The position numbers were made by a program, and so were the translations under genes. Below the pieces are notes generated by a model. It made no database searches. It was not told the DNA's origin and was given only the letters and a program-made list of their open reading frames with translations. A stretch of 64,000 nt of DNA from Halorubrum xinjiangense (GTDB lineage Archaea; Halobacteriota; Halobacteria; Halobacteriales; Haloferacaceae), in NCBI RefSeq assembly GCF_900102375.1, contig NZ_FNBO01000006.1, positions 62,001 to 126,000 on the forward strand, read 5' to 3'. This document shows positions 37,534 to 40,943 of the stretch, one piece after another. Positions within the stretch are counted from its first letter, which is position 1, and each line of letters starts with the position of its first letter.

Positions 37534-38755
<1,222 letters not shown>

Positions 38756-38881
38756 TGGCCCCCTCCCCGACCGGAGCGCCCCCCGAGCGACCGCGAGGCG
38801 GGTCGCGGGAGCGCACCGGGCGCCGTCCCGTTCCGGGCTCCCGACAGGAATTTATACCCCGGCCGCGTTGCTCAGGTCGAG
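38756..38881. promoter_or_regulatory. leuA 3' hairpin and ilvB-operon promoter
   Basis: After leuA a 7-bp inverted repeat CGGGAGC (38806-38812) / GCTCCCG (38837-38843) could be a terminator or processing stem, though no T-tract follows. TTTATA at 38851-38856 is a strong TATA candidate. Transcription from it should begin near 38880, directly at the ATG of the small leader ORF. Confidence 0.55.
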
Positions 38882-38956
38882 ATGCGACGGCACACCACGG
38901 CCGCGGCGCACGCGAGCGTTCCGGCAGCCGTCGCGCCGAGTATTGTAGGGGTATAA
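38882..38956 (+). CDS. Putative 24-residue leader peptide of the ilvB operon
   Basis: A 24-codon ORF (ATG 38882, stop TAA 38954-38956) begins exactly where transcription from the TATA box at 38851-38856 should start. It starts MRRHTTAAA and ends APSIVGV, with four Val and one Ile. The last codons (ATT GTA GGG GTA TAA) lie inside a palindrome with 8-bp arms (TGTAGGGG 38944-38951, CCCCTACA 38958-38965). This is the layout of branched-chain amino acid leader peptides used in bacterial attenuation. No protein evidence; the size alone makes it uncertain. Confidence 0.45.
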   Translation: MRRHTTAAAHASVPAAVAPSIVGV

Positions 38957-39131
38957 CCCCCTACACCATCCCTTCCTCACCGACGCGACGCACCGCCGAA
39001 CGCCGGCGGCCGGGCCGTTCCCGACGCGCAGAGTTCCGCACGAAAGACGGGAACGGCGCGCCGGCCCGCCCCGCGTTCCCAGCGACCGACACGAGAACCC
39101 GCCAGATGGCACACCGCACACCCCCACGACA
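38957..39131. promoter_or_regulatory. Leader region of ilvB with alternative hairpins
   Basis: Between the leader ORF and ilvB, GCCGTTCCCG (39014-39023) pairs perfectly with CGGGAACGGC (39048-39057). The inner part GGGAACG (39049-39055) can instead pair with CGTTCCC (39074-39080). The two stems exclude each other. An alternative promoter is possible at 38950-38958 (GGTATAACC). A 170-nt untranslated leader is unusual in haloarchaea. Confidence 0.5.
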
Positions 39132-40943
39132 ATGAGCGACACAGCAGCACAGCCGCGATCCGACGCAGACGGGTCGGACGACGCCTCGGAAGCGGCCGCG
39201 ACCGAGGAGCCGACCGACCCGGACGACGAACAGGCCGCGGGGCCCGTTTCGACCGGCGCCGAGTCGGTCGTCGCCGCCCTCGAAGCCGCGGGCGCGAAGA
39301 CCGCCTTCGGCGTTCAGGGCGGCGCGATCATGCCCGTTTACGACGCCCTGTACGACTCCTCGATCCGACACGTGACGATGGCCCACGAGCAGGGCGCCTC
39401 TCACGCCGCCGACGCGTACGGCGTCGTCGCCGGCGAGCCGGGGCTCTGTATGGCAACGTCCGGGCCGGGCGCAACGAACCTCGTCACCGGCATCGCCGAC
39501 GCCGACATGGACTCGGACGCGATGTTAGCGCTGACCGGGCAGGTCCCAACGGAGTTCGTCGGGAACGACGCGTTCCAGGAGACAGACACGGTCGGCGTCA
39601 CGCGCCCCATCACGAAGCACAACTACTTCGCCGGCGAGGCGGACACCGTCGGCGACACCGTCGGCGAGGCGTTCGAGCTGTCGCGCGCCGGGCGGCCCGG
39701 CCCGACGCTCGTCGACCTCCCGAAAGACGTCACGCAGGCCGAGACGGATCGGACGCCCGGTCCGGCGACGCCCCCCGCGGGGACGGACCCCGACCCGAAC
39801 GCCGACCCGGACGCGGTCGAGGAGGCCGCGCGCGTCATCGAGGCCGCCGAACGTCCCGTCTGCCTGTTCGGCGGCGGCGTCATCAAGGCCGACGCGAGCG
39901 CCGAGGCGCGGACGTTCGCCCGGAGCTACGGCATCCCCGTCACGACGACGATGCCGGGCATCGGCTCGTTCCCCGAGGACGACGACCTCTCGCTCTCGTG
40001 GGCCGGGATGCACGGCACCGGCTACGCGAACCTCGCTATCACCCACACCGACTGCCTGATCGCGGTCGGCACCCGGTTCGACGACCGGCTCACCGGCGGG
40101 ATCGACACGTTCGCGCCCGAGGCCGAGGTGATCCACGTCGACATCGACCCGGCAGAGATCTCGAAGAACGTGTACGCCGACTACCCGCTCATCGGCGACG
40201 CCGGCCGCGTGCTAGACCAGTTGACCGCCGCGGTCCGCGAGGCGCCCGACGCCGAGGCGTGGCGTGACCGCTGCGACGAGTGGAAGGAGACGTACCCGCT
40301 CACGTACGCGACCCCCGACGACGAGCCGCTGAAACCGCAGTTCGTCGTCGAGGCGTTCGACGAGGCGACCGACGACGACACCATCGTCACCACGGGCGTC
40401 GGCCAACACCAGATGTGGGCCTCGCAGTTCTGGACGTACTCGGAGCCCCGGACGTGGGTCTCCTCGCATGGCCTCGGCACGATGGGGTACGGCGTCCCGG
40501 CCGCGGTCGGCGCGCGCGTCGCCGCCGACACGATGGGCGAGGAAGACCGCGACGTGGTCTGTTTCGACGGCGACGGCTCCTTTTTGATGACGATGCAGGA
40601 GCTGTCGGTCGCGGTCCGCGAGGAGCTTGACCTCACGATCGCGGTGCTCAACAACGAGTACATCGGCATGGTCCGGCAGTGGCAGGACGCCTTCTACGAG
40701 GGGCGTCACATGGCCTCCGACTACACGTGGATGCCCGAGTTCGACAAGCTCGCGGAGGCGTTCGGCGCCTTGGGCCTCCGCGTCGACGACTACGACGAGG
40801 TCGCGCCCGCGGTCGAAGAGGCGCTCGAGTACGAGGGGCCGGCCGTGATCGACTTCCACGTCGACCCGGAGGAGAACGTCCTGCCGATGGTGCCGAGCGG
40901 CGGCGCGAACGGGAAGTTCGCGGCCGCGGAGGACCAGCTATGA
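39132..40943 (+). CDS. ilvB: Acetolactate synthase large subunit
   Basis: A 603-residue ThDP enzyme that joins two pyruvates, or pyruvate and 2-oxobutyrate, in valine, leucine and isoleucine synthesis. The first 40 residues are an acidic low-complexity tail. Then [20 protein letters not shown] near 56-75, catalytic Glu in [17 protein letters not shown] near 82, and the ThDP site [14 protein letters not shown] near 480 then [12 protein letters not shown]. The stop overlaps the start of ilvN. Confidence 0.93.

Follow-up and report, generated by a model that had tools for sequence, protein, structure and literature searches.

A conserved leader reading frame with isoleucine and valine codons as a probable ribosome-mediated attenuator of haloarchaeal ilvB

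A leader reading frame and hairpin conserved upstream of ilvB

In the 64,000-nucleotide stretch of Halorubrum xinjiangense DNA analysed here (the window), the acetolactate synthase gene ilvB is preceded by a promoter, a short leader open reading frame (uORF1) and a hairpin that encloses the end of that frame, an arrangement that is probably a ribosome-mediated leader-peptide attenuator responsive to isoleucine and valine. Comparison of haloarchaeal loci shows that the promoter, the ORF, its codons, the hairpin and the placement of the stop are conserved together. The features are as follows.

38851–38856, + strand: TATA box TTTATA, leader promoter, with its first base 31 nt 5′ of the uORF1 ATG
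38882–38956, + strand: uORF1, leader peptide MRRHTTAAAHASVPAAVAPSIVGV, 24 codons and a stop, with an equivalent frame in 79/79 usable loci
38942–38947, + strand: proposed regulatory codons ATT (Ile) and GTA (Val), from codon enrichment and natural variants
38944–38965, + strand: hairpin TGTAGGGG-TATAAC-CCCCTACA, enclosing the last codons and the stop of uORF1, from folding and conservation
38954–38956, + strand: uORF1 stop codon TAA in the hairpin loop, from loop-frame analysis
38966–38985, + strand: G-poor, pyrimidine-rich stretch with a CCCTTCCTC core at 38970–38978, from base composition; possibly a termination-factor site
39106–39135, + strand: uORF2, MAHRTPPRQ-stop, its TGA overlapping the ilvB ATG (ATGA), from frame conservation
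39132–40943, + strand: ilvB, acetolactate synthase large subunit, the presumed regulated gene, with 95–96% identity to the nearest Halorubrum ilvB copies

The genes after ilvB encode an ilvN-like small subunit and ilvC. For the comparison, ilvB loci were collected from 80 haloarchaeal species, of which two without upstream DNA were dropped, so that 78 loci and the window make up 79 usable loci. GTAGGGG followed by CCCC lies upstream of ilvB in all 79, counts that are not independent events because the species share ancestry; the signals closest to independence are the natural variants, the codon bias and the restriction of the stop to one frame. The frame through GTAGGGG reads Ile-Val-Gly-(Ala/Val)-(x)-stop, with Val-Val in one locus and terminal Gly-Gly in another. 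An in-frame ATG is found 24–43 codons 5′ of the stop in most loci, with promoter spacing in nearly all, and a perfect 6/6 TATA match starts 30–32 nt 5′ of this ATG in 47/79 loci compared with 1/1106 control blocks. This is the spacing expected of a leaderless transcript, and in the window, where the first base of the TATA box is 31 nt before the ATG, transcription is thus expected to start at or beside the ATG. Leaderless transcripts make up 72% of the protein-coding transcripts of Haloferax volcanii (PMC4983044). The preliminary description of this DNA had placed TTTATA at 38851, an ATG at 38882 and a 24-codon ORF ending Ser-Ile-Val-Gly-Val-stop, all of which are present (TAA at 38954–38956), and it had proposed that conservation of the ORF be checked in relatives, where the frame recurs in every usable locus.

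The element extends well beyond this sample. Among 292 haloarchaeal genomes, the ATT form was detected in 219 and the ATC form in 70. Counting by hand left 13 genomes with neither form and one further, spurious match, so that about 95% of the 292 carry the element, usually as a single copy. In 31 of 35 fetched copies ilvB lay downstream, the remaining four being off-target matches. A comparable leader was not found in 14 non-halophilic ilvB genes inspected directly.

The hairpin and the stop codon in its loop

The 8-bp palindrome noted at the outset (arms at 38944–38951 and 38958–38965) is present and recurs in 79/79 usable ilvB loci. Its predicted pairing in the free leader has a mean probability of 0.95, with a z of about −4.3 against shuffles. 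Covariation is seen at the inner pair (C-G/T-A/G-C) and in locus L131, where a compensatory G-C to C-G change keeps the pairing of an altered stem, GTAGGGCC-CGCCTA-GGCCCTAC; it is confined to these positions because the arms are largely invariant. The covariation that had been suggested as a check is thus present, in this limited form, for the hairpin, and the further stems proposed downstream are not conserved.

A stop codon in the uORF1 frame occurs in 35/38 distinct loops, the other two frames giving none, while shuffled loops contained an in-frame stop in 3.2 cases on average and 10 at most (2000 trials). TAG, TAA and TGA are all used, differences in loop length keep the stop in frame, and in the three exceptional loops the ORF stops five codons further on. 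Stops restricted to this one frame are hard to account for without translation of uORF1. With the last codons and the stop inside the hairpin, a ribosome positioned there must open the stem, so hairpin formation would depend on where the ribosome is.

Proposed regulatory codons and natural variants

In 79/79 loci the final universal Val is encoded by GTA, although GTA makes up just 0.4% of the Val codons in ilvB of these species. The preceding codon is ATT in 52, ATC in 26 and GTA in one, although ATT represents 5.9% of ilvB Ile codons. The suggested test of codon conservation thus shows enrichment of both GTA and ATT. GTA is retained in a number of loci even where it is unpaired in the hairpin. 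Two observations on these codons count against the attenuator reading: a single Ile-Val pair is universal, and GTAGGGG is nearly invariant beyond the needs of pairing or amino-acid identity.

The latter, exceeding what coding demands, would suit a protein-binding site, with the GTAGGGG...CCCC dyad acting as an operator or as the RNA site of a regulator and the ORF being incidental. We regard this as very improbable, since the stop falls in the uORF frame only, the arms are spaced by 5–9 nt with the stop held in frame, the promoter-ATG spacing is conserved, the outer part of the 3′ arm is not, and there is one copy per genome. The 22-bp palindrome has a single perfect copy in the 3.26-Mb genome, and a genome-wide search for the further copies that an operator might have yielded none.

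The genomes in which neither form had been detected were inspected for divergent copies, and in these the Ile position is occupied only by Val, Leu, Met (once) or an expanded Ile run. Val-GTA is found in L128, L130 and L135, Leu-GTA in L132 and Met-GTA in L141, while L136 has the normal peptide; endings among these variants include VVGA-stop, LVLVGAL-stop and, with a compensated stem, PIVGPA-stop. L127 and L129 have SIRVRAA with GTA and a different GC hairpin. In L133, the second ilvB copy of one genome, the leader is MTRSTAPESTLVTSGISDSATGIIGIIGIIGAPQ, with six Ile codons leading into GGGGCT...AGCCCC and a TAG in the loop. Within the stretch examined, no recognisable leader precedes four ilvB genes (L134 and L137–L139), and L140 was set aside as not a true ilvB.

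As a separate observation, genome G219 carries two close ilvB copies (L133 and L141) whose leaders have diverged, that of L133 containing (Gly-Ile-Ile)x3, GIIGIIGIIGA.

These peptides also bear on a different kind of stalling, in which the terminal Ile-Val-Gly-Ala/Val would arrest the ribosome by itself or together with bound free Ile or Val, as in TnaC. The conserved hydrophobic C-terminus and the stop codon close after it are in keeping with such nascent-peptide arrest, but the distance to the stop varies (IVG[AV]-stop, IVGAx-stop, IVGALSPHL-stop), as do the flanking residues, a divergent leader has IIGIIGIIGAPQ, and the Gly is accounted for by the GGGG arm, which makes arrest of this kind quite unlikely. 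That a leader ORF with Ile/Val codons controls ilvB, as first proposed, thus has strong comparative support from the promoter-ATG spacing, the in-frame loop stop, the branched-chain residue at the key position and the six-Ile divergent leader; the ORF, its promoter spacing and its pathway end-product codons are conserved, and its translation and regulatory effect are what these would imply.

The region between the hairpin and ilvB

Immediately 3′ of the hairpin, G falls to 2–3% at positions +1 to +15 across the 79 loci, and T reaches 46% at +11 to +15. A U-run directly 3′ of the hairpin was not found, the longest T run within 30 nt being at most 2 in 54/79 loci, and a search for a mutually exclusive antiterminator stem gave no conserved alternative; with both absent, the classical output is missing. 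The stems previously proposed at 39014–39023, 39048–39057 and 39074–39080 lie in an indel-rich stretch and are absent or replaced in relatives. Consequently, of the order originally put forward (leader ORF, regulatory codons, mutually exclusive stems, ilvB), the ORF, codons and hairpin stand and the exclusive stems do not. That account had also overlooked the rarity of GTA, the loop stop, the G-less pyrimidine tract and the second ORF at the ilvB start. A scan with the curated covariance models of Rfam 15, for known riboswitch, T-box and leader families, gave no gathering-level match in the window and chance-level matches alone at 38700–39300.

Could the ORF and hairpin be accidents of GC-rich DNA? 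Such genomes do contain many long open frames, and the downstream stems are not conserved, but the statistics on loop-stop frame, codons, TATA spacing, genome survey and spacer ATGs (given below) are all contrary. Conservation, codon and frame statistics refute a chance origin for uORF1 and the hairpin, and its probability is practically negligible.

In 60/77 loci an ORF extends as far as the ilvB start and terminates at its ATGA, with position and frame kept and CA-rich codons. ATGs in the spacer between the hairpin and ilvB are strongly biased to this frame: 72 lie in the uORF2 frame versus 6 and 3 in the remaining two, where about 25 per frame would be expected. uORF2 may couple translation to ilvB. 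The overlap and the ATG bias favour purely translational control, in which the position of the ribosome on uORF1 would set translation of uORF2 and then of ilvB by termination-reinitiation at ATGA, with no early termination. This is nevertheless fairly unlikely: uORF2 is missing where uORF1 and the hairpin persist (e.g. L026–L029, L031–L033, L036–L038), and the predicted accessibility of the ilvB start hardly differs between the free (0.57) and the stalled leader (0.60), values that led us to reject sequestration of the start by the leader.

Proposed attenuation mechanism

Under the favoured attenuator reading, transcription would begin at the uORF1 ATG, with leaderless translation closely trailing RNA polymerase. 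As long as charged Ile- and Val-tRNA are in good supply, the ribosome would pass ATT-GTA, reach the stop in the loop and depart, after which the GC-rich hairpin would fold and G-poor, pyrimidine-rich RNA would be exposed. Most transcripts would then end or be cut there, premature termination being favoured, possibly with the assistance of FttA/aCPSF1. When Ile or Val is scarce, a ribosome stalled on ATT-GTA would cover the 5′ arm and block the hairpin, allowing expression of ilvB and the downstream genes. We infer the stalling, the direction of regulation and termination as the output from the conserved architecture, in which hairpin formation would presumably lower ilvB expression by early termination. 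FttA, the archaeal termination factor, has a preference for U-rich RNA, and a response of FttA to the loss of coupling has been proposed (PMC11616081).

Because two defining features of the class, a U-run terminator and an antiterminator, were not found, we do not file the ilvB leader as a member of the classical trp/ilv-type attenuators, though it would be functionally alike to bacterial leader-peptide attenuators. The preliminary description held such ilv attenuation to be undescribed in haloarchaea, and within the open-access literature searched no archaeal leader-peptide attenuator was found.

Relation to known systems

In Escherichia coli, ivbL/ilvBN is a leader-peptide attenuator of an ilv operon. 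Others are found in Corynebacterium ilvBNC (PMC11857589) and in actinobacterial ilvB leaders (PMC1262725). The haloarchaeal ilvB leader shares with them a short ORF with branched-chain codons before ilvB and a hairpin that a stalled ribosome could disrupt. It differs in having an archaeal leaderless uORF whose stop falls within a single hairpin, just one Ile-Val pair of rare codons in place of a long run, and neither a U-run terminator nor a conserved antiterminator that we could find. The E. coli TnaC leader is Rho-dependent and senses free Trp through nascent-chain arrest. The ilvB leader ORF, like tnaC, ends just 5′ of a stretch, here G-poor and pyrimidine-rich, that may offer a termination factor an unstructured site; unlike in TnaC, codon sensing is favoured, and the archaeal factor would be FttA, not Rho.

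Leaders upstream of pheS, accessory trpS and leuA

Two tRNA synthetase genes also appear to be under the control of leaders of this kind. Upstream of pheS (30 loci, including L204–L232; counts made by hand from listings), a leader ORF ends in GFGFFF in 16/30, continuing (A/D)x-stop, and six more have close variants (GFDFFF, GFGFVF, GLGFFT, GFGFFS, AF[RE]PFF). Many of these leaders have a TATA-like box about 29 nt 5′ of the ATG; the stop is in or touching a GC hairpin in about half. For the accessory trpS, a second tryptophanyl-tRNA synthetase gene (L233–L240), a leader was found in 8/9 loci whose Trp-Arg-Trp (WRW) codons are flanked by the two arms of a long stem, CAGTCCGCTC...GAGCGGACAG. No leader was found upstream of trpC or leuA, which were also checked, and this counts against the attenuator reading.

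A bacterial counterpart for comparison with the haloarchaeal pheS leader is E. coli pheM-pheST, and actinobacterial trp/trpS leaders are also known (PMC1262725). As in these, clusters of cognate codons (GFGFFF, WRW) lie beside or inside stems; unlike these, the pheS and trpS leaders described here are archaeal. For Hfx. volcanii, Table 2 of Babski 2016, on long 5′-UTRs, lists uORFs with mapped starts before pheS (26 aa, with a TSS upstream of the uORF) and a tryptophan-tRNA ligase (23 aa); it gives neither a mechanism nor an analysis of codons, and ilvB is not listed (PMC4983044). As independent leaders with cognate codons, those of pheS and trpS speak for the attenuator reading at ilvB, and they suggest that leader peptides are used more widely. 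We give roughly even chances to a general, independently organised haloarchaeal system, with Ile/Val sensed at ilvB, Phe at pheS and Trp at an accessory trpS, whose leaderless uORFs would end in or around hairpins and control FttA-dependent termination.

A further observation concerns the start of leuA (window 37534–37640, and the same place in L004–L083), where the ATG at 37534 is out of frame with LeuA, as is the first ATG in 72/76 loci. The N-terminus read from the ATG is acidic (25% D+E, 1% K+R), the upstream part of the LeuA frame is basic (34% K+R, no D/E), and one frame gives way to the other at a near-invariant stretch, TCGAGTTCTTC. Judged from these frames, leuA appears to need a +1 frameshift, for which GGTCGAGTTCTTC is the candidate stretch; no report of it was found in the open-access literature searched.

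Conclusions

Leader-peptide attenuation is a textbook bacterial mechanism. The genetics available for Haloferax volcanii, where ilvB is HVO_1508, allow the ilvB leader idea to be tested directly and, if it is true, the leader would offer a simple test of the fate of archaeal RNA polymerase when the ribosome stalls or leaves, which is the FttA question. It would also qualify the view of structured leaders as minor in haloarchaea, where control by them has been stated not to be typical (PMC4983044). A near-universal haloarchaeal version would mean that coupled transcription-translation is used for regulation in archaea and, should the general system hold, it would place ribosome-mediated attenuation in a domain for which the open-access literature searched gave no reports.
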